A DNA stretch of 26,794 nucleotides from a virus: positions 1-26,794 of IMG/VR virus record IMGVR_UViG_3300020457_000079; one strand, given 5' to 3'. Below the pieces are notes generated by a model. It did not search any database. It saw only the letters and a program-made list of their open reading frames with translations, and was not told where the DNA came from. The translations under genes were made by a program, and so were the position numbers. Every line of letters begins with the position of its first letter. Positions within the stretch are counted from its first letter, which is position 1. Shown here piece after piece: positions 1 through 20,375 of this stretch.

Positions 1-132
1 TACGAAACGTAGTTTAAGGATGAGTTGAGTTTCTTCAGCGAGCCTTTGCGTGTATTCTTCTGTGCCTGGTACTTGCCTAATAAATCTATCGTACAGCCTA
101 GTTATGTCGTTCAGTTCTTTATCTTTTTTCAT
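1..132 (-). CDS. Partial gene, 5' end only; possible N-terminal part of a DnaE-like palm
   Basis: An open frame runs from an ATG at 132 to the window edge, giving the first 44 residues of a longer protein. It starts MKKDKELNDITRLYDRF. The stretch at residues 27-44, with pattern Y-x2-RL-x2-E-x3-I-x3-F, resembles the segment of bacterial DnaE (PolIII alpha) that leads into the first half of the palm (family pattern Y..RL..EL..I...GF..Y). That is a short and weak match. It gains interest because a second gene here (3994-4599) begins exactly at the DnaE motif that would follow this half. The leader at 133-165 carries three copies of AGGCAA. Alternative: an unrelated hypothetical protein. The coding call is fairly safe; the family call is tentative. 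Confidence 0.55.
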   Translation of the reverse strand, partial: MKKDKELNDITRLYDRFIRQVPGTEEYTQRLAEETQLILKLRFV

Positions 133-212: not shown

Positions 213-1670
213 TTATTGTTCTTCGTCTGAGTGTAGTTCGTTGAGCAGTTGTCTGAGTTTTGTACCCTCAACTGTTGCCCTCACTTTGCCAACATCGTCG
301 CCTTTAGTTGGATCTATGTTATCGTCACTTCTTGCGTCTTTTGGTGTATTTGGAGTTACTGGATTATTTGGCGTAACTTTTGATTTCTGTTTAAGTGAGT
401 CATAAATTGAACTTCTTTGTTTATCAAATTGTTTATACTCTGGATCGTCTGCCAAGTCTCTTATTCTCAAAGTGTCCACGTCAAATTCTAAATCTATTTT
501 TTGTCCAACACCTGAACTAGATCTAGTTTTCATAAATTGTATTTGATATCTTCCACGTTCTCTCATGGCTCTTGATGTAAAGATACCAATTACGTTATCT
601 GCTGTTTGTATCTTAGATAATCCACCTGCTATATGAGAATGGTCAAATTCAATTTCTTCAACACTTGCTCTGTTTAACTGCGATGCAGTTGCTAATAACA
701 TTTGAGATTCTACTGCAAAATTTCTTAGTTCTTCTGACACATATTTGTCTTTTATAAACAAATCTGCTGGCGATACTCTTTTAGATTTTGGCATCATTAG
801 ATCAAGATAATCAATCAGTATACAATCTATTTTCTTTTTGTTTTTAAGTTCTAATTCTTTAATATAAGTTTTTATATCGAGTATTGTGCTACCACTTGGC
901 AAATATTTTAGTTGCAAGTTTCCGGATTTCTTTTTTAACATCTTAACTTTCATCTCAACATCGTCCATGGATTTCATCACGTTCTTTGTTGGAATGTTGG
1001 TTGTCATAGCATCTATCCTCATAGCCGCAAGTACCTCAGATAATTCAAAAGATATGTAAACTGTGTTCAAGCCAGCCAGTGCCCAATTCACTGCAAGATT
1101 CTGTAAGAACAAACTTTTACCTGCACCTGATCCGCCTGCAAAAATGTTTAGTTCTCCTCGATTAAATCCACCGAACAGTTTCTTATCGAGATTAGGCCAA
1201 CCTGTGCTGACTTGTCCGTTTGAACTTTTTAAAAGTTCTAACCTACCTTTTGGATCATCAAAGTAGTCTGTACCTAGATCACGTGTTAGTCCTACGTTCA
1301 CTGCATCTTTGACCATATCCTCTACTGGAGCATAGTCGCCTCTTTCAAGTAAATCTGCAGATTGAAGTATTGCACCTTCGAGTGCCTTGTGTCTAGAAAA
1401 TGTTTCAAATTCATCTAATAACCAATTGAAATGAGATGGATCTAAATCCTGTGCACCTTTTAATTTAATATCGTGCTTGGCATTAACTTGATCAACCTCT
1501 GGCATAACCTTGTATTCTTCTACATAATCTTTAATGAATGTTGCAACTGGTTGTAATTTTCTATCAAAATGTTTTGGAATAAAAATGTTAGATGCTCTAG
1601 CAAATGATTCAGCATCTGCTAAAAACATTTCTAAATATAACTTCTGAACATCAAAACTATACTCTGCCAT
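213..1670 (-). CDS. 41: Replicative DNA helicase, T4 gp41 (DnaB-type)
   Basis: Hexameric 5'-3' helicase that unwinds the fork and works with the gp61 primase as the T4 primosome. The 485-aa length is close to T4 gp41. An N-terminal helical domain (about residues 1-130) is followed by a RecA-like motor: Walker A GGSGAGKS at 179-186, the SFELSE segment with the likely catalytic Glu at 209, and Walker B ILIDY at 284-288. A Q/N/P-rich charged tail fills about residues 420-485 and may be a partner-binding extension. The start ATG overlaps the end of the primase gene by 14 bases, so helicase translation is probably coupled to primase. Family identity is secure; the T4 name rests on the adjacent gp61. 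Confidence 0.93.
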   Translation of the reverse strand: MAEYSFDVQKLYLEMFLADAESFARASNIFIPKHFDRKLQPVATFIKDYVEEYKVMPEVDQVNAKHDIKLKGAQDLDPSHFNWLLDEFETFSRHKALEGAILQSADLLERGDYAPVEDMVKDAVNVGLTRDLGTDYFDDPKGRLELLKSSNGQVSTGWPNLDKKLFGGFNRGELNIFAGGSGAGKSLFLQNLAVNWALAGLNTVYISFELSEVLAAMRIDAMTTNIPTKNVMKSMDDVEMKVKMLKKKSGNLQLKYLPSGSTILDIKTYIKELELKNKKKIDCILIDYLDLMMPKSKRVSPADLFIKDKYVSEELRNFAVESQMLLATASQLNRASVEEIEFDHSHIAGGLSKIQTADNVIGIFTSRAMRERGRYQIQFMKTRSSSGVGQKIDLEFDVDTLRIRDLADDPEYKQFDKQRSSIYDSLKQKSKVTPNNPVTPNTPKDARSDDNIDPTKGDDVGKVRATVEGTKLRQLLNELHSDEEQ

Positions 1671-2676
1671 ACATCTTTCTCTTTAAATCTATTTTAAGTC
1701 TATTTGACTCTGTTGATTTTAGTATTGATTGTATAGTAAACAATCTTCCATATTTTAACACAGCATCGGCAACATCGTCAACATCTTCTTCCCACTCTGG
1801 AAATGCAACACTCCAACGAAAATCCATTGCTTGGTTAATTAATTTTTCTCCAGGTGCATCTCTGTCTGGTACTACAATTACCTTTCTTCCTAAGGCGTCA
1901 ATCAACTCTCTTTGTGTATCATTTATCTCTGATCCTAGTATGCTGACACCAGAAACGGATATAGCATCAAAAGGTCCTTCTGTAACAATTACAAACTTCC
2001 TTGTCCAGTCCTGTGCATCCATGTTAAAAACATAACCCGGTTGGACCTCTGTATAATATTTTACCTTACCTGAGTCGTCAAATATTCTGCCAGTGTAACC
2101 AACAACATCACCCTTCCAGTAAAATGGTATTATCAATCTTCTGTTAAAATCAAATGACATATCTGGAGAATACATAAAATCATACCAATCAGCACCAATG
2201 CCTCTTGCTCTTAAATAATTTAACAAAGAATCGATATAATTGTGTTGCTTATCTGTAAGATCTTTTCTGAGATATTTTTCTAGCCAAGTATCTAATTTGT
2301 GTGCATTTTTTGGCAAACTTTTTTTAATAAAGGAAACAAATTTTTTCTTTTCGATTACGTTATCTGATTCTTCCAGACGCATAGCCTCAATAACAAGTTT
2401 CTTAATTGTGTTGTCGTCAATTCCTAACCAAGACATCCATTTTTTAGTTTTTACGGAAATTTTTCTGCCTGGTATATAGGAAGTTTTAAATCCACAATTA
2501 AAACAATGATATGATAAGGTACCGTCCGCACTATTCATTATACCTCCACGTTTCTTTTTATCTTGTGTTTCTCCGTTGTGTATACAGCACGGTCCGTTGA
2601 ATGCAATCCACCCAGAAGGAGTTTTTTTCTTATTCGTAGGTAAGGATGTCAGAATAGTCGACTGGATCAGGTTCAT
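1657..2676 (-). CDS. 61: DNA primase, T4 gp61
   Basis: Makes the RNA primers for lagging-strand synthesis with the gp41 helicase. The 339-aa protein has an N-terminal zinc-binding module of the CHC2 kind (C30/C31, H33, C58, C61 in HCFNCGF) and a TOPRIM catalytic domain with TEGPFDAI (acidic E233) and the PDRDAPG motif (D271, D273). Length and order match T4 gp61. It sits between a virion-type gene upstream (10-base gap) and gp41 downstream (14-base overlap). No good Shine-Dalgarno is visible before the ATG, only AT-rich sequence, so expression may depend on coupling. Confidence 0.93.
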   Translation of the reverse strand: MNLIQSTILTSLPTNKKKTPSGWIAFNGPCCIHNGETQDKKKRGGIMNSADGTLSYHCFNCGFKTSYIPGRKISVKTKKWMSWLGIDDNTIKKLVIEAMRLEESDNVIEKKKFVSFIKKSLPKNAHKLDTWLEKYLRKDLTDKQHNYIDSLLNYLRARGIGADWYDFMYSPDMSFDFNRRLIIPFYWKGDVVGYTGRIFDDSGKVKYYTEVQPGYVFNMDAQDWTRKFVIVTEGPFDAISVSGVSILGSEINDTQRELIDALGRKVIVVPDRDAPGEKLINQAMDFRWSVAFPEWEEDVDDVADAVLKYGRLFTIQSILKSTESNRLKIDLKRKMYGRV

Positions 2677-3502: not shown

Positions 3503-3877
3503 ATGAACGAAATATTTGAAAAACTAGGAAAGAAATTCCCCTTTTTAACACTCGTACAAAAGAGTGACTTTGAATATGTTGGTATAGTCCAAAACCAAGA
3601 TACCAATGTTATAAGTGTATACGACTATGATAAACTAGCAACACAGAGAGAAAAAGAATTATTCTTGTCATTAGGTGAAACTTGGTGGTGGGAGTCCAAT
3701 AGAAAATTACCAATCAATATATTTCTTAAAAAAGACTTCAAACAGTTCAAGTACACACTTACAACATTGAGTGGCAAAGATGTAAGAATTGTGCATGGAC
3801 CTACTGTACGATTGGCCGATATTGCGAAGAAACGAATAAAGCGAAGAACTATTCAGTTAATGCGTAAACCTACCTAG
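3503..3877 (+). CDS. Conserved-type hypothetical protein, 124 aa
   Basis: Plus-strand gene with a reasonable ribosome site (GGAAAGTGA directly before the ATG). The protein starts MNEIFEKLGKKF and has a mixed, folded-looking composition with a Trp cluster (ETWWWES, about 60-66). Its end is strongly basic (AKKRIKRRTIQLMRKP), which would suit nucleic-acid or membrane contact. I recognise no enzyme motif. It diverges from the virion-type gene, and its last 8 bases overlap the end of the minus-strand 52-aa gene. It is the only plus-strand gene in the replication block, so it probably has its own promoter in the 33-base spacer. Confidence 0.75.
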   Translation: MNEIFEKLGKKFPFLTLVQKSDFEYVGIVQNQDTNVISVYDYDKLATQREKELFLSLGETWWWESNRKLPINIFLKKDFKQFKYTLTTLSGKDVRIVHGPTVRLADIAKKRIKRRTIQLMRKPT

Positions 3878-4028
3878 TTTTCTTCTTTTCAGGAAGTATA
3901 GCACCTGTTATCAGATAGTGTTGTGTTAAAGGACTATTTGGGTTATAACCATACGGATCTGATTTTTTAGAAGAAGTTTTTTTATTAAGTTTTTTACGGA
4001 TTGTTTTTTTCTTTTTTTGATTGTGCAT
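3870..4028 (-). CDS. Small basic protein, 52 aa
   Basis: A short frame starts MHNQKKKKTIRKKLNKK and has a Lys/Arg-rich first third. A hydrophilic aromatic segment, DPYGYNPNSPLTQHYLI, follows, and the protein ends KKKTR. The ATG lies 35 bases inside the end of the DnaE-like gene, and the stop overlaps the end of the plus-strand 124-aa gene by 8 bases, so it fills the space between the two exactly. The varied, ordered C-terminal sequence argues for a real product. Function is unknown; the charge suggests nucleic-acid binding. No strong Shine-Dalgarno is visible. Confidence 0.6.
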   Translation of the reverse strand: MHNQKKKKTIRKKLNKKTSSKKSDPYGYNPNSPLTQHYLITGAILPEKKKTR

Positions 4029-4599
4029 CAAAACTATATTTATTTCTTTTCATTAGATTCATCTGTACTACGATTGCATGAGCATATGCAATAGCATGGG
4101 ATTTCTTAAAGAAGTAACTGCCGTCTGCAGGTTTAGTCCATACTTCCTTCAATATATCGACCCAGTCTTTATACATTAGGTGCCTCTTTGCAGGACGTAT
4201 AATTGCTAATACAGCCGCAAGTTGTTCAATATTTTTTGGTTCAAGTTTTGAAACAATATTGTAATGACCATTCAAATGAAATAAATTATCAACCACGTTG
4301 GAATCTTTTAGTATATCCCAGTCTGGTTCTTCTATCATTAATTCTACAAGTTCTCTTTCAGATTTTATATCCTTGTAAATATTGACATTCAATAAATCTA
4401 TCTTAAAATATCCACGACTCTCTGCATCTTTGTAATCTAGACTTGATCCTTTAGTATTTGGATTTACAGGAATGTCATGAAAGTATATTCCTGATTTATG
4501 TTTTTCATGCACGTCGTTCTTTACAATAGTTGCTGGAGTATGTTTGAATAATTGTAATACTCCTTCTCTATCAAAAAAATCTATGTCTACATCAGGCAT
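3994..4599 (-). CDS. Miniature DnaE-like (PolIII alpha) catalytic-core protein
   Basis: A 201-aa protein that reads as a compressed second half of the bacterial DnaE palm. It opens with MPDVDIDFFDRE, equivalent to the DnaE PDxDIDF motif carrying two catalytic aspartates (here D5 and D7). The third appears in GYFKID (D68), matching the KxDFLGL motif. H31/H34-KSG, then LFHLNGHYNIVSKLEP and LAIIRP (about 107-136), match the DnaE block usually written FQ.ES.GM...L...KP......ALYRPG. FFKKSHAIAYAHA (163-175) matches FNKSHA.AYA. The first and third aspartates are about 60 residues apart, against about 150 in full DnaE, and most of the C-terminal half is absent. An in-frame stop 21 bases before the ATG fixes the start, with AAGGA as ribosome site. 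It overlaps the preceding microgene by 8 bases. Family assignment is good; activity is unknown. Confidence 0.75.
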   Translation of the reverse strand: MPDVDIDFFDREGVLQLFKHTPATIVKNDVHEKHKSGIYFHDIPVNPNTKGSSLDYKDAESRGYFKIDLLNVNIYKDIKSERELVELMIEEPDWDILKDSNVVDNLFHLNGHYNIVSKLEPKNIEQLAAVLAIIRPAKRHLMYKDWVDILKEVWTKPADGSYFFKKSHAIAYAHAIVVQMNLMKRNKYSFDAQSKKEKNNP

Positions 4600-4765: not shown

Positions 4766-4989
4766 TAGTGTATGGTTCCTCCTGCTGTTTTATCAAATTC
4801 TTCTTTAGCGCCTGGTTTTAGCATATCAATTACATCCAACATTTTTTTATATCCTTCACTTTGTACAGTTTCTGGATTCATTTCTGGCACAACAATTTTT
4901 CCTAATGATCCATCTGGTTTAATTACAACCACGCAGTCACCAATTTCAAAATCAAGTTCCTCTGCAACTTCAATATCTATCTTACTCAA
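4765..4989 (-). CDS. Small acidic hypothetical protein, 74 aa, TTG start
   Basis: Starts as (M)SKIDIEVAEELDFEIGD and has a compact beta-rich core (GDCVVVIKPDGSLGKIVVPEM) that looks like an SH3- or KOW-like barrel strand pattern, followed by a helical C-terminus (YKKMLDVIDMLKPGAKEEF). The start is chosen at TTG 4987-4989 because AGGAG lies six bases upstream and the overlap with the preceding gene is then only 8 bases (TTGAGTAA). Longer versions would begin inside that gene without a ribosome site. The stop overlaps the next ATG by one base. No family is recognised. Confidence 0.7.
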   Translation of the reverse strand: MSKIDIEVAEELDFEIGDCVVVIKPDGSLGKIVVPEMNPETVQSEGYKKMLDVIDMLKPGAKEEFDKTAGGTIH

Positions 4990-5674
4990 TTTTTGCTCCT
5001 TTTGCCGTTTCTTGAACAAACAATAAGTCTGCTGGATAACTTTTAAACTTGCTTGACCAATATCCTGGGTTAATAAATTTTTGTGTCATTTGTAATTGTT
5101 CGTCTGTAAACGATTGTAACATTTTTTTTCCAGCAGAGCAACCGTAGATTAACCATGGCGATATTTTACCTGCTTGAATGTGTTGTACCGCTCTGTTTGT
5201 GTTTACTAATCTAAAGTAGTCAGACCATTGTGCGTTTTGTGTATCTGCCCAATCCATCATTGTTGTTATAGATCTTTGTAATGCCGCTTCAACTGGTTCA
5301 ACTTTTAATGTTTCAACGAGATATGTTTCATACAAATCTTCTCTTGCCCAATGATCAAGTTTAATTCTTGACAGTACAATATAGTCTATATATTTGTCTG
5401 GATATAAAGGATTTATATGCATCATAAACCTACCAAACTTTACAAATGCATTATAATAAGGAGATGAACAAAAATCGTCATATGTTCTTTGTTTTGCATT
5501 TTTTTGATTCACTTCATAAAATCTTTGAAATACTATAAAGGCATTCTGCACCCATTTTTCATTTTTTTGTAAGTGTCTACGTTTAGGTTCGCACATATGG
5601 ACGTGTAATGTACGTTCACGTGAAAATGTCTTACCACAATATGTACAAGTAAATTTAGTTAATTCCGTGTGCAT
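4982..5674 (-). CDS. C2HC zinc-finger protein, 230 aa, function unknown
   Basis: The N-terminus carries a single zinc-finger of the form C10-x2-C13-x12-H26-x-C28 (CTYCGKTFSRERTLHVHMC) followed by a basic run (EPKRRH). This looks like a DNA- or RNA-binding finger. The remaining 200 residues are mostly helical, with many aromatic and charged residues, and show no known catalytic motif. The ATG has a near-perfect Shine-Dalgarno, GGAGGAA, at seven-base spacing inside the end of the gp62-like gene (20-base overlap). Lying between a clamp-loader-like gene and the DnaE-like gene, it may be a replication or transcription regulator; this is inference. Confidence 0.75.
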   Translation of the reverse strand: MHTELTKFTCTYCGKTFSRERTLHVHMCEPKRRHLQKNEKWVQNAFIVFQRFYEVNQKNAKQRTYDDFCSSPYYNAFVKFGRFMMHINPLYPDKYIDYIVLSRIKLDHWAREDLYETYLVETLKVEPVEAALQRSITTMMDWADTQNAQWSDYFRLVNTNRAVQHIQAGKISPWLIYGCSAGKKMLQSFTDEQLQMTQKFINPGYWSSKFKSYPADLLFVQETAKGAKIE

Positions 5675-9598: not shown

Positions 9599-10012
9599 AT
9601 GAATAAAAGAAGAAAAACACAGAAATTTAAAAAACATTTGGAAAAAGTGTTGAACAGGCCTAGTACCCAACAACCATATTATACAAATATGCATGGGATT
9701 AAGTCATGGTACGATCACTATAACGTTGCCTTGTTTGACAACAAATTACCGTATTTTGATGAAATAAAAATAAAAAGAATACATGGTGCATTAGGACAGG
9801 TTGTTTATACAACTTATAAAACTAAAGATAAGCATTATGTTCTTGAGATGTTACCAAAATATCCAACCAAAAAAATGTTTTTAGAAACGTTGGTACATGA
9901 AATGATACATTTATATCAAATGAAAGTGCGAAACAACACAGGTAACCATAACAAATTATTTTATAGTTTCAAAAGCAAACTTAATTTTTTAGGTCTAGAA
10001 CTTTCTCGATAA
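9599..10012 (+). CDS. SprT-like zinc metalloprotease
   Basis: A 137-aa protein with the SprT fold signature: HEMIH at residues 100-104 (two zinc His and catalytic Glu), with a third His likely at H117 in the following NHNKLF segment. The region before it (KSWYDHYNVALFDNKLP, about 35-51) matches the SprT-family start, where the F..LP motif precedes the zinc site. SprT/Spartan relatives cleave DNA-bound proteins; a phage copy may clear proteins from DNA or act in host takeover, which is inference. It lies divergently from the replication operon. Its last 32 bases overlap the end of the minus-strand GT42-like gene. Confidence 0.85.
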   Translation: MNKRRKTQKFKKHLEKVLNRPSTQQPYYTNMHGIKSWYDHYNVALFDNKLPYFDEIKIKRIHGALGQVVYTTYKTKDKHYVLEMLPKYPTKKMFLETLVHEMIHLYQMKVRNNTGNHNKLFYSFKSKLNFLGLELSR

Positions 10013-10727
10013 ACTCTGCATAAGCCATAACCTTGTGATTCTTATGAGGTATTACTTTGATATAATCGGGCGGAGTATCATGTACAATAGTAAAATTGCA
10101 GTACGGTCTTCTTTTACAAATACTTTTATATTGTTGTAACCATGGCTCAAATATTGTATCACTATCTCTCTTGCCGTAGTTTTCTGTGTCTTGATAAATG
10201 TTGTTTAACTGATTTTTTCCGTACTCTCTGAAATCATATCCTATCAAATATATATTTTTGTGTCCGTGTATACAAGCGGTCCAGAATGCGGCATTACCTG
10301 ATATCCAATGAGGATTATGAGGGATCAAATTTAACTTATAATCCGATCTCGACATTTCGATTGCAGGCGCATAACATACAGTCTTTTCATACACTTTATC
10401 TTTCACAATTTTTTGAGACATAAATCTGTCAACACTGAACAAATACGTTGGGATAAAATCTCTATATAGAGCATTACAGCCATAAGTTTGTCCGTTGTTA
10501 TGCAACCAATTTAAATCTAATTTGTCTTGCCTTGACGGACCATTCCCTATACAGTATGCATTTCCTTGTGGCACTGCCTTAATTCTATCTTCGACCCATT
10601 CACGTTCTTCAATTTTTTTGCCTTGACGTATTGTCATACGTGCAATTATTTCTTCGCCTTGATACTGTGTCCATTCTATAGGTTGATCTGGATCCGGTCG
10701 TTTGCCAATGTGAAATACTTGTTTCAT
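9981..10727 (-). CDS. Glycosyltransferase, GT42/DUF115-like (sialyltransferase fold)
   Basis: The 248-aa protein has the nucleotide-sugar signature AYCIGNGPSR (about 57-66), followed by a GCNALYRDF segment and a SVD strand. SGNAAFWTACIHGHKNIYLIGYDF then matches the bacterial CstII-type order (SG.....A..LG...IYL.G.DF). This suggests transfer of a sugar, possibly a nonulosonic acid, to a glycan; the substrate is unknown. The DUF115/MptE-like group is the alternative, because it shares the GNGPS strand. It ends the minus-strand operon 12902-9981 and overlaps the ParB-fold gene by an ATGA. The tail overlaps the SprT-like gene by 32 bases. Confidence 0.7.
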   Translation of the reverse strand: MKQVFHIGKRPDPDQPIEWTQYQGEEIIARMTIRQGKKIEEREWVEDRIKAVPQGNAYCIGNGPSRQDKLDLNWLHNNGQTYGCNALYRDFIPTYLFSVDRFMSQKIVKDKVYEKTVCYAPAIEMSRSDYKLNLIPHNPHWISGNAAFWTACIHGHKNIYLIGYDFREYGKNQLNNIYQDTENYGKRDSDTIFEPWLQQYKSICKRRPYCNFTIVHDTPPDYIKVIPHKNHKVMAYAEFIEKVLDLKN

Positions 10728-11152
10728 TCAATCTCCATTAATTTGTAAAATGCCCAACTATTAATTAGGCCACTTACTCCTAAATTATAATTTTGTTCTT
10801 GATCTATATCTCTTAAAATTTTATTTGCTTTTGCTAATCCTAAACCTGACTTTATAGGAATTATAAGTGCCATTATTTGATCGTCTTTCATTTTCTTTGC
10901 CGCTTGTACTCTATGCCATCCATCACAAAGAACGTAGTATCCTGTATCTTTTATTGGTGCAACCAATATTGGATTTAAAGGTTCTGATTGTTTTGTAAGT
11001 TTCTTTATCCAATCTCGTTTTTCTTTGTTCAATGGTCGTTCTGCTCCTAGTCCTAGTTCTGCTAAGGTGATTAACTTATCAATCTTTACTTGTATAGGTT
11101 TTACTATTTTTTTATGTATTTTTCTAACAGTCTTTCTCTTATCCTTGCCCAT
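10724..11152 (-). CDS. ParB-like (ParB/Srx-fold) protein, 142 aa
   Basis: A basic N-terminus (KDKRKTVRKIHKKIVKP) leads into the fold: a strand NPILVAPIKDTGYYVL followed by CDGWHRVQAAKKM, where DGWHR (77-81) is the GxHR-type nucleotide-binding loop of ParB/sulfiredoxin-like domains. No DNA-binding helix-turn-helix or ParB C-terminal dimer domain is evident, so this is a free-standing domain protein. Such proteins in phages are often annotated as nucleases, or are linked to kinase or base-modification chemistry. The start at 11152 has the ribosome site AGAAGGA, although it sits 49 bases inside the upstream gene. It is fully embedded in the glycosyltransferase operon. Confidence 0.75.
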   Translation of the reverse strand: MGKDKRKTVRKIHKKIVKPIQVKIDKLITLAELGLGAERPLNKEKRDWIKKLTKQSEPLNPILVAPIKDTGYYVLCDGWHRVQAAKKMKDDQIMALIIPIKSGLGLAKANKILRDIDQEQNYNLGVSGLINSWAFYKLMEIE

Positions 11153-11982
11153 GGCTTTCCTTCTCTAAATTCTTCTGTGAACCATTCTGTATATGATAAC
11201 TGATTTGCCCAGTTTTGTCTAGCCGGCATTGCCGGGTGTAATATATCTGACAAATCCGTATTACCAACATCATGGCATAAACTTTTCTCTGACACAAACA
11301 CAGGTATACCGTGTATTACTGCCTCCATGGCAGGGTTTGAACTGTGATTGACCACTGCCCAGGTTGATGCTAAAATTTTTTTAAAGTCAGTATCATCGTA
11401 TGTATTCCAATCACGTTTAGGTAAATTTACTCTGACGTGTTTATATTTGTGTTCTGGAAAATTATGAACTATATTTCTTGGGTGTGGTCTTATTACAATT
11501 GGTTTGTCTGTATATCTTCTTATTTCTTCAATACAATTTTTAAAATAGGATTTAAGTCCAGGATTTTCTCTCCACTGATGACTATTGTGATGTTGTCCAC
11601 ATATTACTATTACGTTACCTGTTTGCTTCCACGGTCTAAATTGATGATTAAAAAGTGGCCAACGTTTGTCATCATATGTCTGATTTGCAAAGTCTGCCTC
11701 TCGATTGATTCCGTTTATACCCATTTTGAAAGATGAATTTCTACGTAGTCCGCCTACCTCTAATACAACAACTGGTCTTCCTGTGCCTCTAAATTTTTCC
11801 CAAACTTCTTTATTAGGTTGCATCCGTCCTTGCCAAAGTACCGACCAAATTACTGCAACATCACAGTTCCTATCCTCTCCTATAAAAACTTTTTCACCCT
11901 TTGATTTTAAATGTTCAATAAGTGCGGCGAATACCGGCTTTCCGTTTAAACTTGAATTTTCAGGGTAGAGTGCAATTCTCAT
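11104..11982 (-). CDS. GT-B-like glycosyltransferase, paralog A (capsule polysaccharide type)
   Basis: A 292-aa protein of a GT-B-like family related to capsule or Kdo-type transferases. The diagnostic C-terminal half holds PIVIRPHPRN (the HP nucleotide-sugar motif), then WAVVNHSSNPAMEAVIHGIPVF, NTDLSDI and a YTEWFTEEFREGKPW tail. The N-terminal half has a short Rossmann start, MRIALYPENSSLN. The same order of blocks occurs in three other genes of this window (12928-13947, 14969-15781, 18127-18948), so they are diverged copies. The start is coupled to the upstream GT by TAATG. The ParB-fold gene begins inside its last 49 bases. Donor and acceptor are not deducible. Confidence 0.75.
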   Translation of the reverse strand: MRIALYPENSSLNGKPVFAALIEHLKSKGEKVFIGEDRNCDVAVIWSVLWQGRMQPNKEVWEKFRGTGRPVVVLEVGGLRRNSSFKMGINGINREADFANQTYDDKRWPLFNHQFRPWKQTGNVIVICGQHHNSHQWRENPGLKSYFKNCIEEIRRYTDKPIVIRPHPRNIVHNFPEHKYKHVRVNLPKRDWNTYDDTDFKKILASTWAVVNHSSNPAMEAVIHGIPVFVSEKSLCHDVGNTDLSDILHPAMPARQNWANQLSYTEWFTEEFREGKPWARIRERLLEKYIKK

Positions 11983-12902
11983 TAATTTCCTTGTGTTCCT
12001 TTTGCTACTTTACTGATAATATCTTCTGCTTGTTTTGGATCAAATCCACTTTTAGCAAATGGATCATAACTTTCAACACTTTGCCAATATTCTTCTGGTC
12101 GATTAGATCTTAGGTCTGTTGCAGAACTTTTACCTTTTACTTTTCTTTTGCCTTTCATGTGATCGACATAAGCACCAAGAACACTATTAATAAAAACATG
12201 ATGTCCTTTTGCACCTGCACCTTTGCCTATATCGTAACCATCATTTGGGGCAACTTCTTTTAGTACTTGCCAAAATACATAGGAATCATGCCATTCGAGA
12301 TGTTCAAAAATTGTATCTTTATTATATAAATCAATCCAAGTATCAATAAATGAATTAATTAAGTAATGCCTTTTATTGTAACTAACCCAACCACACTCAG
12401 GATATTTTTCTCCCCTACCCAAAAAATTTACTAACTTATCAACTGGCATTAGATTAAGGACAAAATCTTTTGGTATAGGTCTAAAAGTATATGTGTCTGC
12501 GTCTAACCATAAAACAACATCGACATCTATGTTTTTTATTGCATGAGCAACTGCAAATGTTTTATGTGCAAATCTTACTGCGTCCCATAAGAAAGAGCCT
12601 TTACCTTTATCGTTTTTTCCTGCATTTGGATTTCTACGTACACCACCTGGTATCTCTTGTAGTTCTCCATTTGCAACTGGATCATCTTTATGTCTGTTTT
12701 TAAAACTAACTAAATCAGGATTTTCTTTTTCTAAATCAATATAAATTATTTTTTCGTGTTGCAATGGCGGTAGTTCTTTTTCGTAATACACATATAATTT
12801 TACATCATCGGGCCAATTTTCTACAAAACTTTCTAACATTCTTTTCCCATACGCCTCCCAACGGTTTGGTGGGAAAGTTGTAATAACCGCTAATCTTCTC
12901 AT
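11982..12902 (-). CDS. GT-A glycosyltransferase with DxD motif
   Basis: A 306-aa protein whose start, MRRLAVITTFPPNRWEAYG, is followed by a first Rossmann half. The metal-binding motif VLWLDADTYTFRP (DxD near residue 137) marks a GT-A fold. The later segments HDSYVFWQVLK and KGHHVFINSVLGAYVDHMKGKRK match the acceptor-side and HxxG-type regions of such enzymes. The ribosome site AAAGGAAAA lies before the ATG. It is the first gene of the minus-strand glycan operon and shares one base with the next. An ATTAAATA late-type element sits about 28 bases upstream. Confidence 0.75.
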   Translation of the reverse strand: MRRLAVITTFPPNRWEAYGKRMLESFVENWPDDVKLYVYYEKELPPLQHEKIIYIDLEKENPDLVSFKNRHKDDPVANGELQEIPGGVRRNPNAGKNDKGKGSFLWDAVRFAHKTFAVAHAIKNIDVDVVLWLDADTYTFRPIPKDFVLNLMPVDKLVNFLGRGEKYPECGWVSYNKRHYLINSFIDTWIDLYNKDTIFEHLEWHDSYVFWQVLKEVAPNDGYDIGKGAGAKGHHVFINSVLGAYVDHMKGKRKVKGKSSATDLRSNRPEEYWQSVESYDPFAKSGFDPKQAEDIISKVAKGTQGN

Positions 12903-12927
12903 GGTTGTTTTCCTTTGATAATTATAT

Positions 12928-13947
12928 ATGTATTTAATGAAAAGTCTTACAGTACAAATTTTTAGAAGAACAGTTAAGGATCGAAAACGTGGAGATTCTT
13001 ATAAGTTGTTGTACGACTTTGCCGAAGGAGTTAGAGCAGTAGGTGACAAAGTAGAAATCATAAACGAAAATATGACCGGACCAACACAGGACGGAGAAAT
13101 GGAAATTACTGCACCAATTGGTGTCATGTTTGGATACGGCGGTGATAGACAATTACATCATACAAAAGGTAGACGTCATATGCTTGTTCAAAATGCAAAA
13201 AATAAAGGTAGTGTTGTAATAACATTTGATGGGGGTTTGTGTTCAAGTTTTGGTAATACAGCAGGTGTGCCAAACCACAGATACAGAGTTGCCCTGTGGA
13301 CACCAATGCGTAATGGAAACTTTTTAGCAGATAACTCACCCGACGATAGATGGAAAGAAATGCAAAGTTTGTTTAATATTGGAAGTTACGAATGGCAAAA
13401 ACCAAAAGATGACGCACCTATTTTATTTGTTTTACAACCAAAAGATAATTGGAGCATGAATGAATTAGATCCTATTGAATGGTTTAATGATGTTTATAAA
13501 AAAATAAGACCATTGACAAAAAGAAAATTATTAATTCGTCCACATCCAAATAATGTTGCATCAATGGATGAAAGGAGAAATGAGTTTCCTGATGATTGTG
13601 AATTAATAATTGGACAAAAACATTTTGCCGGTGATGAAAAAAAGTACTATAGATTTAACTTCCAGGACGCATTAAATAATTGTCATGCTGTTATTACTCA
13701 CAACTCTACTGCCAGCGTCGACTCTTGCATTCGTGGAATCCCTACCTTTGTTACCTCAGATCTTGCAATTTGTTGGCCAGTAGCAAATACTAATCTAGAA
13801 GATATAGAAAATCCAAAATATCCGGATAGAACACAATGGTTAAATGATCTAGGTTATATGATGTGGTCTGTGGACGAAATTCGTTCAGGTAAAGTTTATT
13901 CAAGATTCCGTAGCAAAATACTTGAATCTAATTTGATATCGTTGTAA
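12928..13947 (+). CDS. GT-B-like glycosyltransferase, paralog B
   Basis: The longest of the four paralogs, with up to 339 aa. It repeats the family blocks: LLIRPHPNN, then AVITHNSTASVDSCIRGIPTF, NTNLEDIENP, and a W-LNDLGYMMWSVDEIRSG tail. The start is uncertain. The ATG at 12928 is used here, but a second in-frame ATG at 12937 (MKSLTVQIFRRT) looks more natural; neither has a clear Shine-Dalgarno. The gene diverges from the GT-A gene across a 25-base spacer and collides tail-to-tail with the GT61-like gene in a 52-base overlap. It probably acts on the same glycan as the neighbouring transferases; this is inference. Confidence 0.75.
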   Translation: MYLMKSLTVQIFRRTVKDRKRGDSYKLLYDFAEGVRAVGDKVEIINENMTGPTQDGEMEITAPIGVMFGYGGDRQLHHTKGRRHMLVQNAKNKGSVVITFDGGLCSSFGNTAGVPNHRYRVALWTPMRNGNFLADNSPDDRWKEMQSLFNIGSYEWQKPKDDAPILFVLQPKDNWSMNELDPIEWFNDVYKKIRPLTKRKLLIRPHPNNVASMDERRNEFPDDCELIIGQKHFAGDEKKYYRFNFQDALNNCHAVITHNSTASVDSCIRGIPTFVTSDLAICWPVANTNLEDIENPKYPDRTQWLNDLGYMMWSVDEIRSGKVYSRFRSKILESNLISL

Positions 13948-14939
13948 TCGTTTAATCTTTTATAAGTTTTTTCGTGTGTGGTTTTAGGTATAGGAACACA
14001 CTCTCCCATCAATACCTTATGGTCCAAGCCAAGCAAATATGAGAGATTAGGATAAACTTTTTTAGCAGTATGTTTATGAACAATTTCAATTACTTTAGTA
14101 CCTGGCAAACACCAAAGTAGATTAACAAGTCCTGCACCGTGAGTGCCAACAACGTGTGTTGCTTCTGCAAATGCTATCATTTGATCTAACACTGGCATCT
14201 CTTCGAGTCTCAAAACTTCCCATCCTTTTAGTATTGCAAATATTTCTTCTTTGTTTGATAATTTTCTAGAACCTACACCTCTGTCTATAAAAATTTTCCT
14301 ATGAGGGGGTTTTACTTTTTTATGTAAAAATCTTGAGCGTATAAAATTAACTGATTGTGGAATAATTACACCGTCATTATGATTGCACATTGTAGGAACG
14401 TATAAGTGTTTAAACTTCCATGTTTCGTTTTTAGGCATGACCACAAGTTTGATTTCTGGCATAATTTCAGTAATTATTTTTTCCATATATTCGCTTCTGT
14501 GAGGCATAATGTAAACAAAATCTTTAAAGGGTTTACTTAATCTTTTCTCTAGCAATCTCATTTTTGCAATTACATCTATCCATATGTGCCATGGGTTATT
14601 GCCAGAGGAAACGTCTATTGGCAACCATACAAATTTATTTGTGTCTGTGAATTCTTGTGTAGGCAAAGGAATGTTGACATCAACACTTTCACCCCACTTA
14701 GGATATATTCCTTGCCGAGGTCCTAATTTATTCTTTTGTTTCCATGTTAGCGGCCATACGTGTTCTGATATTAAACCACCCATTTTGGTTATTAAGAAAG
14801 GCCAGGTATGAACCATACAATCTTCAAACTCAGCAAGATAGGTAGAGTGTGTTTCAAAGTTTAAATATTTTTGAGGATAATCAATAACATCAAACTTGTC
14901 ATGGAAATACTGAATACTTTCGATATTTTTAACTTGCAT
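13896..14939 (-). CDS. GT61-family glycosyltransferase (DUF563)
   Basis: A 347-aa protein whose final third carries the GT61 signature: a DRGVGSRKLSN segment, an EEMPVLDQMIAFAEATHVVGTHGAGLVNLLW block with the HGAG motif, then PGTKVIEI. The N-terminal part contains the family's strand pattern (HSTYLAEFEDCMVH, WIDVIAKMRLLEK). In GT61 the HGAG region contributes to the sugar-nucleotide pocket; known activities are xylosyl- and GlcNAc-type transfers, but the phage substrate is unknown. It stands alone on the minus strand between plus-strand genes, with a 29-base divergent spacer on one side and the 52-base convergent overlap on the other. Confidence 0.8.
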   Translation of the reverse strand: MQVKNIESIQYFHDKFDVIDYPQKYLNFETHSTYLAEFEDCMVHTWPFLITKMGGLISEHVWPLTWKQKNKLGPRQGIYPKWGESVDVNIPLPTQEFTDTNKFVWLPIDVSSGNNPWHIWIDVIAKMRLLEKRLSKPFKDFVYIMPHRSEYMEKIITEIMPEIKLVVMPKNETWKFKHLYVPTMCNHNDGVIIPQSVNFIRSRFLHKKVKPPHRKIFIDRGVGSRKLSNKEEIFAILKGWEVLRLEEMPVLDQMIAFAEATHVVGTHGAGLVNLLWCLPGTKVIEIVHKHTAKKVYPNLSYLLGLDHKVLMGECVPIPKTTHEKTYKRLNDYNDIKLDSSILLRNLE

Positions 14940-14968
14940 AATTTCAATTATTTAATTACAATATAACT

Positions 14969-15781
14969 ATGCTCACAATTTATGCACCTATGGAAAATCT
15001 AAACAGCAAAGCCTGGGAGGTATTTGGGGGTGTAATGAAGTCTTGGCCCACTGCTTACCAAACACTGGATAACGGAAAAGCAACAGATCCTTTTGATAAT
15101 AGTATGTTTTGGGGTTTTGTTAATAATAATCTTAAACTAGTTCATAAACTTGAGGAACGCAAAGATAATTTTTGGTTTACAGATACTCCATATTTTGGTA
15201 GATTTAATAATAAAAATTTAAAGCCGGACAACCATTGGTGGCGTATATGTAGAAATAACATTCATGCAAAACTATTAACTAATTGTGATTCAAAAAGATT
15301 TGACTCTTTTGGTATCAAAGTAAATCCACCAACAAGAGATGGAAAATATATTTTAATTTGTCCTAGTTCTGCAGGTATTCATATGTATCTTAAGCAGACT
15401 ACATGGTTAGATGATACAATTAAAGAAATTAAAAAACATACAGATAGACCAATTAAAATAAGAGAAAAACCTCGAGGCAGAGGAACATCAGGACCTAGTG
15501 AAGCAAAGATAACCATTGAAGAAGATTTAAAGGACGCATGGGCCTGTGTAACTTCTTGTTCTATCAGTGCAATAGAATCAATATGTAACGGTGTACCTGT
15601 TTTTTGTCATGAGAAAAGTTTTGCTACACCTGTAGGTTCAACAGATTTAAGTTCTATTGAAAATCCAAAGTTTGTTGACTCATATCAATGGTTATGTTCG
15701 TTAGCATACCAACAATTCACACCAGAAGAATTTGCTAATGGTACTGCTGTCAGTATAATAAAAGAATATTATGATAGTTAA
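14969..15781 (+). CDS. GT-B-like glycosyltransferase, paralog C
   Basis: A 270-aa member of the same family as the genes at 11104, 12928 and 18127. The HP motif is altered here to REKP (IKIREKPRGRGTSGPSE). The rest follows the family: WACVTSCSISAIESICNGVPVF, then STDLSSIENPKF and SLAYQQFTPEEFANG. Loss of the histidine at the HP position could change donor binding or activity, while the later blocks remain. It opens a plus-strand operon of five genes. No Shine-Dalgarno is visible before the ATG, only AT-rich sequence. It overlaps the FkbM gene by 11 bases. Confidence 0.75.
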   Translation: MLTIYAPMENLNSKAWEVFGGVMKSWPTAYQTLDNGKATDPFDNSMFWGFVNNNLKLVHKLEERKDNFWFTDTPYFGRFNNKNLKPDNHWWRICRNNIHAKLLTNCDSKRFDSFGIKVNPPTRDGKYILICPSSAGIHMYLKQTTWLDDTIKEIKKHTDRPIKIREKPRGRGTSGPSEAKITIEEDLKDAWACVTSCSISAIESICNGVPVFCHEKSFATPVGSTDLSSIENPKFVDSYQWLCSLAYQQFTPEEFANGTAVSIIKEYYDS

Positions 15782-16400
15782 AGTAAATGAATTTTGGGTA
15801 CCAGAGAACGACATACATATAGAAGAATGGAAATCTGGACAACCGTTTACACAAAATAAATGTTTAATAAAATTTAAAGAATGGTGTACATCTCAACAAA
15901 AAAAATTTCGAACTGTTATAGATGTAGGTGCATGGTGCGGAACTTGGGCATCTGAAATGTACGAATTTGCTGATAGCATAAAAGCATTTGAGCCTAATAC
16001 AGTAAATTTTAAATGCTTAGAAAGAAATGCTGGTAGGTATCCTAATGTTAATCCGTTCATATATGCTTTAGGTGACAAAGAAGGATTCCTAAGCATGACT
16101 AATGATGACTTTACTCAGGCGATTAGGATAGAAGAATCACAGGGTAAAATTCCAGTTAAGACTATTGATTCGTTTGGTTGGACAGATGTTGATCTCATAA
16201 AAATTGACGTTGAAGGTTATGAGATGAAAGTTTTAGAAGGTGCAAAAGAAACTTTAACAAACACTAATCTTTTAATGATAGAACTTAACAATAATACAAA
16301 AAAATATGGTTCAAGCAATCAGCAGATAGAAGGATATTTAAAAGAGTTAGGCTTTCACGAGATGATCAACATTTGGCCTGACAAGGTATATTGCCGATAA
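15771..16400 (+). CDS. FkbM-family methyltransferase
   Basis: A 209-aa SAM-dependent methyltransferase: motif I VIDVGAWCGTWASEMYEF, then IKAFEPN (acidic end of strand 2), YALGDKEGFLSM and the FkbM-type ending VKTIDSFGWTDVDLIKIDVEGYEMKVLEGA. The IKIDVEGYE block is highly characteristic. FkbM proteins typically O-methylate sugars or related groups, so this gene probably caps or decorates the glycan made by the island. It starts inside the end of paralog C (11-base overlap) and is followed by the epimerase after 9 bases. Confidence 0.88.
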   Translation: MIVKVNEFWVPENDIHIEEWKSGQPFTQNKCLIKFKEWCTSQQKKFRTVIDVGAWCGTWASEMYEFADSIKAFEPNTVNFKCLERNAGRYPNVNPFIYALGDKEGFLSMTNDDFTQAIRIEESQGKIPVKTIDSFGWTDVDLIKIDVEGYEMKVLEGAKETLTNTNLLMIELNNNTKKYGSSNQQIEGYLKELGFHEMINIWPDKVYCR

Positions 16401-16409
16401 TTATTTAAA

Positions 16410-17414
16410 ATGGCTAAGATTTTTATTACAGGTGTTGCAGGATTTTTAGGTTCTCATTTGGCAGATTTAATGATAGCAAATGGGCATAAAGTTGCTGGCA
16501 ACGACAACATGATTGGAGGATATGTAGATAATGTACCACAAGATGTTGAGTTTCATCAAGTTGATTGTAAAGATTTAGAAAAACTTACAAAAGCCATGGA
16601 AGGATGTGATATAGTTTATCATACAGCCGCAACGGCATATGAAGGCCTTTCAGTTTTTTCTCCTGTACTTGTAACACAAAATATATTTGAGGCATCAGTT
16701 GCAACTGTGACTGCCGCTATAAAGAATAAAGTAAAACGTTTTGTGTATTGTTCAAGTATGGCAAGGTATGGAGAAAATCAAACACCATTCAAAGAAGAAT
16801 ATGATTGTAAACCACAGGATCCATATGGTATTGCAAAGAAAGCCGGGGAGGATGTATTGAAAAATTTATGTGAGGTACACGGAATGGAATATGTTATTGC
16901 TGTACCACATAACATAGTTGGCCCGAGACAAAAGTATGACGACCCATTTAGAAACGTAATGTCGATTATGTTAAACAGGATGTTACAAGGTAAACAACCT
17001 ATCATATATGGCGATGGAGAACAAAAAAGATGTTTTAGTTATATAGATGATTGTTTGTATTGTTTGAACGCACTTGCCTTTCAGGATAACGTGGTTGGTG
17101 AAGTGATTAATATTGGACCAGACGAAGAATCAACAACTATCAACGGATTAGCAGAAATGTGTGCAAACGAAACAGGTATAAATTTAGATCCTGAGTATCA
17201 TTTAGACAGACCGCAAGAAGTTAAACTTGCAACCTGCTCATCTGATAAAGCACGTCAATTATTAGGGTATAAAACGTCTACAAATTTAAGGACAGCAGTT
17301 AAAAAAACTGCGGACTATATTAGATTAAGAGGAACTAAAAAGTTTCAATATCATTTACCTTTAGAAATTATAAATGATAAAACACCTAATACTTGGAAAA
17401 ACAAATTAATATGA
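16410..17414 (+). CDS. NAD-dependent epimerase/dehydratase (UDP-sugar 4-epimerase-like)
   Basis: A 334-aa extended SDR enzyme. The NAD motif is ITGVAGFLGSHLADLM (GxxGxxG, about 6-15). The active site shows the Ser/Tyr/Lys arrangement with YCSSMARYG and DPYGIAKKAGE (YxxxK). PHNIVGPRQ and GDGEQKRCFSYIDD are sugar-nucleotide and late-fold signatures of epimerases such as GalE or WbpP. It would convert or supply an activated sugar for the nearby transferases. The final residues and the start of the next gene share an ATGA. The precise sugar is not deducible. Confidence 0.88.
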   Translation: MAKIFITGVAGFLGSHLADLMIANGHKVAGNDNMIGGYVDNVPQDVEFHQVDCKDLEKLTKAMEGCDIVYHTAATAYEGLSVFSPVLVTQNIFEASVATVTAAIKNKVKRFVYCSSMARYGENQTPFKEEYDCKPQDPYGIAKKAGEDVLKNLCEVHGMEYVIAVPHNIVGPRQKYDDPFRNVMSIMLNRMLQGKQPIIYGDGEQKRCFSYIDDCLYCLNALAFQDNVVGEVINIGPDEESTTINGLAEMCANETGINLDPEYHLDRPQEVKLATCSSDKARQLLGYKTSTNLRTAVKKTADYIRLRGTKKFQYHLPLEIINDKTPNTWKNKLI

Positions 17415-18130
17415 TTTCAATAAGTTGCCCATCTAGAGGACGTCCAGAACTCGCAAAGAGAATGATTGATACTGCTTACGAAACAGCCGCCTCCGATATT
17501 GAATTTTTAATATACCTTAATGATGATGATCCTATGTTGGACGAGTATCAAGATACGATTGATAAAAAACATTATTCTATTGGTCCAAATAGATCAACTT
17601 GTTACAGTTGGAATTTAATGGCAGAGAAAGCCAAATATGATTATGTATTCTTAGCAGGAGACGATATCCAATTTAAAACAAAGCATTGGGATAAGATTAT
17701 GACAGATGGTTTTAATGATTATCCAGATAAAATTTTAATGGCTATTCCTTATGACGGAAAAGAAAAAAATAAACCTAAAAAATTATTACAAGCAAAAGGC
17801 CCTACATTGATAGGAGATATTCCTTTCTCTTCTCCTCATTTTCTAGTTCACAAAAATTGGATAGATACATTAGGTTATTTTGTGCCACCATTTTTCTGGC
17901 ATTGGTACGTAGATACATATACGCAAAAGGTTTCAAGAAAACTTAATAGATGCTTATTTTTTCCAAATGTTACAATTAAAGCAAGAAAAATATTTGACGA
18001 AACAGGAAAGCAAGTAAGAAAACATTTAGTAATTAATGATAGAGATGATTATGTTTGGACAAAAATTAGACAAAGACATCTAAACGCAGATGTTGAATTA
18101 TTACAAAAATTTATTGAGGAATATAAATGA
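17411..18130 (+). CDS. GT2-like glycosyltransferase
   Basis: A 239-aa protein starting MISISCPSRGRPELAKRM. It has the GT-A/GT2-like order: a strand with FLIYLNDDDPML, then YDYVFLAGDDIQF (acidic metal site GDD) and a later HFLVHKNWIDTLGYFVPPFFWHWYVD segment that resembles acceptor or catalytic-base regions. The ATG at 17411 is chosen because it overlaps the epimerase stop as ATGA; a longer version would need a TTG six codons earlier inside that gene. It is likely to act in the same pathway. The donor is unknown. Confidence 0.75.
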   Translation: MISISCPSRGRPELAKRMIDTAYETAASDIEFLIYLNDDDPMLDEYQDTIDKKHYSIGPNRSTCYSWNLMAEKAKYDYVFLAGDDIQFKTKHWDKIMTDGFNDYPDKILMAIPYDGKEKNKPKKLLQAKGPTLIGDIPFSSPHFLVHKNWIDTLGYFVPPFFWHWYVDTYTQKVSRKLNRCLFFPNVTIKARKIFDETGKQVRKHLVINDRDDYVWTKIRQRHLNADVELLQKFIEEYK

Positions 18131-18948
18131 TAGCAGGTATTCACACCACGAAACCGAGAACACAACGATATGTGGAATCTTTTGTAAAAGGTACACCCGG
18201 TCCTTTTAAAATATACCAATGGAGGGATTTAAAAGAACTTCCTGAAGAAAACTTAACTATGTATGGAATTCTAGCAGGGTCAGGAGAAGTATACAAATGG
18301 TGTGAGAAAGAAAAACGAGATTTTTATTTTATGGATCATGGATATTTTTCGTATGCTCATGACTTTCCATACTGGTTACGTATTACTAAAAACGGACATT
18401 GTCAAACTAAACTGTTTAACAGACCTAGTGATCGTTATGAAAAATACTTCAAACAAGACATCAAACCATGGAGTAAAAGGGGGTCTAAGATCCTCATACT
18501 GCCCCCTACAAACGCGATTTCAGACTTCTTTAGTGTAACGGACTGGCTAGAAAATACCGTTAAAATATTGCGTGAAAATACAGATAGAGAACTGGTTATA
18601 AGGGATAAACCATATAATCCGGCTGTTACTAAAGATCACGTAGGTGCTACAATTAAAGTAGACTTACCCACAAATAAAACTTCAGGAGCAATAGATTGGT
18701 CGCAATACTTTGCCTGTGTTACCTATAATAGTAACACCATGATTGAAAGTTTTACTAACGGTGTGCCTGTATTTTGTGACCCAAATAACTGTGGAGCAAC
18801 ACCTATTGCCGAAACTGACTTTACAAAAATTGAAACGCCTATATATGGTGATAGAATGTCTTTGTTTAGTTCACTTGCTTATAACAATTTTAATATGGAA
18901 GAAATGCAGAATGGAACTGCATGGACTTTACTCGGTGATTTGATTTAA
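18127..18948 (+). CDS. GT-B-like glycosyltransferase, paralog D
   Basis: A 273-aa fourth copy of the family. The HP position is RDKP (LVIRDKPYNPAV). FACVTYNSNTMIESFTNGVPVF, ETDFTKIETP and SSLAYNNFNMEEMQNG keep the usual order. Like paralog C it lacks the HP histidine, so C and D form a subgroup distinct from A and B. It is translationally coupled to the GT2-like gene (ATGA) and ends the plus-strand operon. Its last 21 bases overlap the end of the minus-strand oxygenase gene. Confidence 0.75.
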   Translation: MIAGIHTTKPRTQRYVESFVKGTPGPFKIYQWRDLKELPEENLTMYGILAGSGEVYKWCEKEKRDFYFMDHGYFSYAHDFPYWLRITKNGHCQTKLFNRPSDRYEKYFKQDIKPWSKRGSKILILPPTNAISDFFSVTDWLENTVKILRENTDRELVIRDKPYNPAVTKDHVGATIKVDLPTNKTSGAIDWSQYFACVTYNSNTMIESFTNGVPVFCDPNNCGATPIAETDFTKIETPIYGDRMSLFSSLAYNNFNMEEMQNGTAWTLLGDLI

Positions 18949-19701
18949 ATTAAAGAGTCTATTTCTTTTCATCACTTCAGCAATTATATTAATACTCAGT
19001 CTGTCATGTCCTGGATCTATACGTGGAGTGACACCGTGTACTGCTTTGTTTGAATTCCAAAACATAACAAAAGTGTTTTCCTTATATTTTATTGTTTTAC
19101 TTTCTTTTATTTCATGACTTTTAGGTATTTGCCTTCCTGTTTTTGCAATTACACTACTCACTGGTTCAGAATCGTATACAACAAAATCTCCGCCCTTTGC
19201 ATTATCACCCCGTTGTCTCATATATAAAAGTCCAGCATACATCTCAACTGGATTATCAATATGTGAAGTTCTAGTTGAAACAGTAACAGGTTTGTGAACA
19301 ACAAACTGGCAATCAGTAACAACATTTCTTTGGCCAGGACTATGCCTGATTCCTGGTATTTCGTTTACAATATTATTATAATAGTTTTCATCTTTAATTT
19401 CGTTTTCAAATATTTTAAGTATGTTTTTATAAAAATCATGAGAAGTATGATATGTTAAAAAATCAAACCATGGTTGTTTAATTTCTATTTTATTTTCGCC
19501 TAAAAATTCATTAGCATTTCCTCTCCATGTATGTCCTTCCATTAATGGAAACTTATCTTTTATAGTCTGTACTGGAAAGTTTTCATAAAGCAATTCGTAA
19601 GTTTGTGTAGGTAGACAATTTTTGATGATAATATGAGGATAAGGATCCGTAAAATAATCGGTTGCTGGATTAAATTTTTGTAGTACTGAGTATGTATTCA
19701 T
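18928..19701 (-). CDS. 2OG-Fe(II) dioxygenase
   Basis: A 257-aa protein with the double-stranded beta-helix iron site: the HxD motif in SHIDNP, a distal His in AVHGVTPR, and an Arg about 12 residues later (HDRLSINII) for the 2-oxoglutarate carboxylate. Between them, GLLYMRQRG-NAKGGDFVVYD matches the prolyl-hydroxylase-type core. It would hydroxylate a protein, sugar or other small substrate; the phage target is unknown. It is coupled to the GT gene at 19701 by TAATG. Related enzymes are common in marine T4-like phages. Confidence 0.85.
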   Translation of the reverse strand: MNTYSVLQKFNPATDYFTDPYPHIIIKNCLPTQTYELLYENFPVQTIKDKFPLMEGHTWRGNANEFLGENKIEIKQPWFDFLTYHTSHDFYKNILKIFENEIKDENYYNNIVNEIPGIRHSPGQRNVVTDCQFVVHKPVTVSTRTSHIDNPVEMYAGLLYMRQRGDNAKGGDFVVYDSEPVSSVIAKTGRQIPKSHEIKESKTIKYKENTFVMFWNSNKAVHGVTPRIDPGHDRLSINIIAEVMKRNRLFNLNQITE

Positions 19702-20375
19702 TATGAACTAAAAAGATTTATTAATTCTTTCTTCCAATCGTCACCATATTCACAATCACGATATCCGTCAAACCACGGACCGCCCTCTGTGTAATGCAGT
19801 ATTTTTGGAGTTCCATCATTTGGTTCTTTGTACCAACCAACTAACCAATTGTATTCGGGTGGCATAGATCCTATTTCGTTATCATCTAACCAACTGAATC
19901 TATGTAGGAATTTTGGAGACTCTTCGTTAAGTAATTCTGGTGTAAGTATTTTATTTTTAGGATGTTCGCAATTCCAAAGCACCATGCTTGACCAATTTTT
20001 ACGTGGATACACTGTTTGTACTTGTCCGTCCATCTTAGTTGTTTCTTTTGGTGCGTAGTCATGTTGTACTACTACAACTGCTTTTGAGTTGTCACAGTAT
20101 TTTACAAGTTCGTGTGATGGTATCTTCCATAAAAAATCGCAATCACAAAACACTGCCCAACCTTTGAAGTCGTTTAGATAGGGTATAAAAAATCTTGTAA
20201 ATGTAAATTCTGTTGAAGCAAGTTTATCAACCGGTCTTGTGTAAAGGCCTTGATCACGCATTTGTTTTTGTTTTAATGGAATAACTTCTGCTGAAGGATC
20301 TCTTCTTTTGATAGAGTGTTCACATACCTGATATGCTATGTCTTCTCGACTATCGTGTCCTACATATATTTTCAT
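19701..20375 (-). CDS. GT-A glycosyltransferase (GT8-like) with DxD
   Basis: A 224-aa protein starting MKIYVGHDSREDIAYQVCEHSI, which matches the GT8-like opening (I.VG.D.RE..A). It also has a FTRFFIPYL helix, the metal motif FCDCDFLW (DxD), and a late IGSMPPEYNWLVG plus ILHYTEGGPWF segment as in GT8 enzymes. The ATG at 20375 is preferred over an upstream TTG at 20405 because it overlaps the HAD stop as ATGA. The gene links the recombination block to the glycan island by transcription from the right. The acceptor is unknown. Confidence 0.8.
   Translation of the reverse strand: MKIYVGHDSREDIAYQVCEHSIKRRDPSAEVIPLKQKQMRDQGLYTRPVDKLASTEFTFTRFFIPYLNDFKGWAVFCDCDFLWKIPSHELVKYCDNSKAVVVVQHDYAPKETTKMDGQVQTVYPRKNWSSMVLWNCEHPKNKILTPELLNEESPKFLHRFSWLDDNEIGSMPPEYNWLVGWYKEPNDGTPKILHYTEGGPWFDGYRDCEYGDDWKKELINLFSS

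Follow-up and report, generated by a model that had tools for sequence, protein, structure and literature searches.

A short DnaE-like ORF conserved in large T4-like phages

The window, by which we mean the whole 26,794-nt (26.8-kb) stretch of viral DNA that was analysed, encodes a 201-aa protein carrying sequence blocks of the C-family DNA polymerase DnaE, and raises the question of what so short a form could do in a T4-like phage. A first-pass annotation had described it as a miniature polymerase core that might be a free-standing nucleotidyltransferase, a dead decoy or one half of a split enzyme. The ORF has an ATG start and the N-terminus MPDVDIDF, and the motif blocks quoted in that annotation are all present within it (MPDVDIDF, GYFKID, LFHLNGHYNIVSKLEP...IRPAKRH and FFKKSHAIAYA; Table 1). 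Along its entire length it aligns with phrog_11778 ('DNA polymerase', 197 positions; E 1e-64), and it has weaker matches to other phage PolIII families. Pfam returned a weak fingers match only, and a single-protein phmmer search against the PDB gave no match.

Using tblastn we identified homologues in 63 phage records, nearly all of them large T4-like phages; in 61 of these the match spans 80 % or more of the protein. Identity was 52-54 % for Phosso and Atu_ph07, 51 % for PA5oct-like phages and 35-38 % for RaK2, 121Q, GAP32, Munch and others, while relatives were found in hundreds of IMG/VR stretches. All homologues examined share the same short form. Pairwise dN/dS against close relatives was 0.02-0.08, with dS near saturation, and the gene is under strong purifying selection. 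The phrog_11778 match, the wide spread of relatives and this selection place the ORF far from a chance reading frame.

Profile matches and predicted structure support C-family ancestry

A search of the PDB with a profile built from 13 divergent homologues matched DNA polymerase III alpha chains only, albeit weakly (best E 0.025), and the alignment to the alpha chains 2hnh and 5lew placed the PD.D.D, RP and KSHA..Y blocks in order. An AlphaFold2 model computed from 53 sequences of the protein's own family had a mean pLDDT of 88.8, and a Foldseek search of the PDB with this model returned C-family polymerases at all of ranks 1-15. Using VIA-align, the model superposed on PolC (3f2c) with a Z of 9.5 over 193 of the 201 residues (rmsd 3.6) and on E. 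coli alpha (2hnh) with a Z of 9.1, starting at residue 400. C-family chains occupied ranks 1-14 (Z 5.8-9.5) and the next, unrelated chain scored 2.8. A Z near 9 is modest alone, and it is the drop to unrelated folds together with the motif register that carries the case. The DnaE-like (PolIII alpha/PolC) ancestry is thus supported by both the profile matches and the predicted structure.

Catalytic residues are invariant in a much reduced chain

In the profile alignment the first two aspartates, D3 and D5, fall on D401 and D403 of E. coli alpha; D68 provides the third. Twelve positions (D3, D5, D7, H34, G37, K66, D68, R135, P136, K138, H168 and Y172) do not vary among the 141 distinct sequences compared, so that the three catalytic aspartates noticed from the single sequence hold throughout the family. 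The D3 to D68 spacing is 65 residues. We take the catalytic residues of E. coli alpha to be D401, D403 and D555, the latter 154 residues after the first, and on this assumption the protein lacks about 90 residues between its aspartates, as first estimated; the segment absent between D5 and D68 presumably corresponds largely to the thumb of PolIII alpha structures. The protein thus shares with cellular PolIII alpha (DnaE) and PolC the D.D palm strand, the third aspartate, the RP and KSHA..Y blocks and the fold, but differs in its size (201 vs ~1,160 aa) and in having no PHP, thumb, clamp-binding or OB domain. It also lacks the GS (GRGS) dNTP-binding motif, since the chain starts after the position of that motif.

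Such extensive losses, of the residues between the catalytic motifs and of most PolIII alpha domains, are what might be expected of a catalytically dead remnant, a decoy or a regulatory fragment of a former polymerase. We consider this extremely improbable, as the catalytic aspartates and fingers residues are invariant among the 141 sequences, which contradicts the earlier suggestion of a dead decoy, and the gene is under strong purifying selection; the GS motif of the putative partner described below is likewise invariant.

Table 1 Features of the window, with positions numbered from its first nucleotide
Feature	Position	Strand	Basis
Probable C-terminal half (201 aa; catalytic, binds Mg2+) of a split minimal C-family DNA polymerase	3994..4599	-	phrog_11778, models, conservation
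DVDID (residues 3-7), with catalytic aspartates 1 and 2 (D3, D5) and D7	4579..4593	-	D3/D5/D7 invariant, n=141; aligns with MPDFDVDF of 2hnh
KID (residues 66-68): third catalytic aspartate D68, invariant K66	4396..4404	-	Alignment
RP (residues 135-136), fingers block, invariant	4192..4197	-	Alignment
KKSHAIAY (residues 165-172), fingers block with invariant H168 and Y172	4084..4107	-	Alignment
230-aa C2H2 zinc-finger protein, phrog_11058, conserved neighbour	4982..5674	-	61 phage records vs 63 for the 201-aa protein
Small convergent gene, phrog_11637, conserved just downstream of the 201-aa ORF	3503..3877	+	Nearly every relative examined
DNA primase (gp61-like), downstream, same cluster	1657..2676	-	Synteny with annotated primases
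DnaB-type replicative helicase (gp41-like)	213..1670	-	Synteny with annotated helicases
Start (44 residues) of a second C-family gene, for a PHP-less minimal DnaE in a single chain, truncated by the window edge	1..132 (132-1)	-	90 % identical to L089

A separate gene in relatives encodes the complementary N-terminal half

We identified a separate gene of about 165-200 aa, matching PF07733 and phrog_11127, in all ten complete jumbo-phage genomes tested that carry the 201-aa protein (Phosso, Atu_ph07, PAC2, RaK2, XacN1, SCTP-2, Vibrio 2.275.O, RAS14, Munch and GAP32), and the two genes occur together in many large IMG/VR contigs. The C-terminal part of its product follows the pattern ...G.GRGS..(S)Y...(I)G.H.(v)(S)..Y.LD..EFL, and GxGS is conserved in every one of 63 distinct sequences. 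In a model of this N-terminal half (pLDDT 91), residues 76-80 to 171 align with residues 279-393 of 2hnh and, likewise, with 307-413 of M. tuberculosis DnaE1 (5lew), while hardly any fold match covers the first 75 residues. As the model of the 201-aa protein starts at residue 400 of 2hnh and 419 of 5lew, shortly after the points where the N-terminal half ends, the two proteins follow one another along a single polymerase core, which is interrupted in a short loop before the first catalytic strand. The same junction can be seen in a natural fusion, the single-chain enzyme of LR756508, in which the N-terminal profile ends at residue 97-98 and the C-terminal motif begins from residue 105; in this 484-kb record we found a family-B polymerase and neither separate half.

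One large contig, the 349-kb G040, is the sole one with the N-terminal half and no C-terminal half. It ends at gp41 on the right and at the gene upstream of the polymerase cluster on the left, and this apparent exception is explained by a break exactly where the cluster would be expected. The two genes are 34-224 kb apart in the isolates measured (RaK2 ~34 kb, PAC2 ~44 kb, Atu_ph07 ~182 kb and Phosso ~224 kb), so that operon-level support for the pairing is absent, which weighs against it. The N-terminal gene is linked instead to a GroES-like gene: 77 of 80 GroES loci contain it, the other three being cut at a contig end, and in relatives with a capsid protein 72-77 % identical it lies upstream of the GroES-like gene. 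At almost all N-terminal loci (e.g. L131:7878-9084 and L085:1195-2576) an 'NARGD' protein and then the GroES-like protein come next.

Neither the N-terminal half nor the GroES-like block was found in the contigs of the window's marine lineage, which are fragments of at most 133 kb, and an outward walk from the end of contig G001 reached short contigs only. From its relatives we infer that the phage of the window carries the N-terminal gene outside the 26.8-kb fragment.

Homology, predicted fold, invariance of the catalytic residues, residue-level complementarity of the halves and their co-occurrence in relatives together argue that the 201-aa protein is very probably one of the two chains of a minimal C-family DNA polymerase, namely its C-terminal subunit. 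Of the earlier suggestions, that of one half of a split enzyme is supported by these data. The short form is real, but it does not stand alone: in relatives the partner half is a separate gene. In the proposed arrangement the C-terminal chain would supply the catalytic strands with D3, D5 and D68, two metal ions and reduced fingers (RP, KSHA..Y). The N-terminal chain (~170 aa, phrog_11127), encoded far off, would supply the preceding palm segment, with W.G.GRGS holding the triphosphate of the dNTP, and the break would fall within the short loop that links the GS segment to the first catalytic strand. Together the chains would form a palm-plus-fingers core devoid of PHP, thumb, clamp-binding and OB domains. 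The halves would be expected to bind each other, and DNA synthesis by their complex is predicted and likely. A core of this kind, having neither thumb nor clamp-binding domain, may not be a processive polymerase.

A second, single-chain C-family gene is sporadic

The first-pass annotation had missed the start of a second C-family gene in the window, lying directly after gp41 and 4.5 kb downstream of the 201-aa ORF. Its counterpart in related contigs, L089, is a 563-aa, PHP-less single-chain DnaE (PF07733, E 2e-42; PF17657, E 3e-17). Single-chain enzymes of this type (L089, LR756508; phrog_405, phrog_11165) share the minimal C-family core with the 201-aa protein but hold PF07733 and the fingers domain in one chain, with the N- and C-terminal parts joined, and keep more of the region between the aspartates.

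Among single-chain contigs tested, 19 of 19 also encode the 201-aa protein on the same strand, 4-8 kb from the single chain. The reverse is not true: the close relatives G066 and G003, for which 22-25 kb of downstream sequence is available, keep the 201-aa protein and have no single chain. The single chain is therefore an accessory, sporadic gene, and the C-terminal half is kept with or without it.

The consistent proximity of the two genes, both of which are present in the window, and the lack of an N-terminal half among the marine-lineage fragments could indicate that in this lineage the 201-aa protein works without that half, for example by serving the single-chain DnaE as an accessory or exchange subunit, or by acting as a free-standing nucleotidyltransferase. 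We regard this as unlikely given that G066 and G003 retain the protein with no single chain to serve, and that across the wider family the N-terminal half is always present where the genome is complete. A free-standing nucleotidyltransferase, as suggested earlier, is made unlikely by the phosphate-binding GS motif, which is absent from the C-terminal half and located in the other chain.

In some relatives an endonuclease III-like gene, identified by eye (L306, G022:21080-21766), is positioned between gp41 and the single-chain polymerase; it is absent from that position in the window, and may suggest a link to base repair. Beside the single-chain polymerase of a phage contig, five consecutive ORFs (L303, G016:64209-68812) seemingly encode, as judged by eye, a complete branched-chain amino-acid ABC transporter.

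Family-B polymerase and the probable role of the split enzyme

All four jumbo isolates tested have a family-B polymerase (gp43), as do 9 of 10 contigs with the N-terminal half. Its gene is located about 174 kb from the C-terminal half in Phosso, the closest isolate, and is present in a 349-kb relative contig with a UvsX 71 % identical. With PF00136 we obtained no hit in the window, and none in ~40 contigs belonging to the marine lineage or its near relatives; these are all fragments, the longest 133 kb. Absence of gp43 or of the N-terminal half from fragments of up to 133 kb says nothing, because in Phosso both genes are more than 170 kb away. We infer that the phage of the window has gp43 and that the gene falls outside the 26.8-kb fragment.

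The missing PF00136 match, and the position of the single-chain gene immediately after gp41, could also be read as loss of gp43 by this phage, the replicase role having passed to minimal C-family enzymes of the split type, the single-chain type or both. This is highly improbable considering that every one of these contigs is a fragment and that Phosso and other relatives, including the 349-kb contig, retain it. There is a similarly very small chance that the marine lineage combines a split and a single-chain minimal C-family polymerase, the latter encoded right behind the primase and helicase genes, in one replisome which has replaced gp43 in replicative synthesis. An accessory role of the split polymerase, be it in repair, in filling gaps or in extending primers beside the primase, would be likelier than that of main replicase, owing to the presence of gp43 in the four isolates and in most contigs with the N-terminal half.

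In two of the records the family-B polymerase itself occupies two frames, which are separate and 18 nt apart in Atu_ph07 (L091/L096) and ~3 kb apart in LR756508 (259348-267284); a frameshift, a true split or an insertion could each account for this.

A conserved replication neighbourhood

The gene for the 201-aa protein belongs to a replication cluster conserved between the window and its relatives, which comprises UvsW, a 167-aa protein, the C2H2 protein, the C-terminal half, the phrog_11637 gene (3503-3877, no Pfam match), a structural protein, gp61 primase and gp41 helicase. The C2H2 protein has a phyletic pattern almost identical to that of the C-terminal half and is a possible accessory factor or subunit. 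On account of a GCSAGK stretch this adjacent 230-aa protein had been suspected of being the N-terminal half itself, which was ruled out by its C2H2 finger match and by the distant location of the GRGS gene.

Elsewhere in the window we observed by eye an SprT-like metalloprotease motif, HEMIHLYQ (9599-10012, plus strand), and a long cassette of sugar-/methyl-transferase-like, epimerase and 2OG-oxygenase-like genes (10724-20405). The cassette is situated between the replication and structural clusters and varies among relatives.

Relation to known polymerases and significance

A split minimal PolIII alpha was already described in 2021 for group 2.2 jumbo phages, to which Atu_ph07 belongs, as two distantly encoded proteins, one N-terminal and NTP-binding, the other C-terminal and Mg2+/template-binding, accompanied by a family-B polymerase and lacking the other PolIII domains (Iyer et al., PMC7824862). 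Our data agree with this description in that the window encodes a stand-alone C-terminal, Mg2+-binding protein and Atu_ph07 carries both homologues found here. The window differs in that its marine lineage is uncultured, with no more than 54 % identity to the nearest isolate, Phosso, and in having the C-terminal half only, plus the start of a single-chain minimal DnaE. In a survey of marine jumbo phages, PF07733 was present in 51.9 % of cluster PGC_A (PMC9123017). We found no experimental study of the split PolIII alpha in the open-access literature, which omits most subscription journals.

The idea of a split enzyme is thus not new, and the 201-aa protein is a new marine member of the polymerase type predicted in 2021. 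The present data add that the enzyme type extends to an abundant marine lineage; they also locate the break point at residue level, with models of both halves, and show the invariance of the motifs of both halves, the conserved neighbourhood, the linkage of the N-terminal half to a GroES-like gene and the coexistence of the C-terminal half with a single-chain relative. Should the two chains reconstitute a polymerase, its size of ~370 aa in total would be very small for the C family, and its nucleotide-binding and metal-binding halves would be open to separate study. It would offer a testable model of the growth of PolIII out of a bare nucleotidyltransferase core, and would represent a second DNA polymerase in a common group of large phages.
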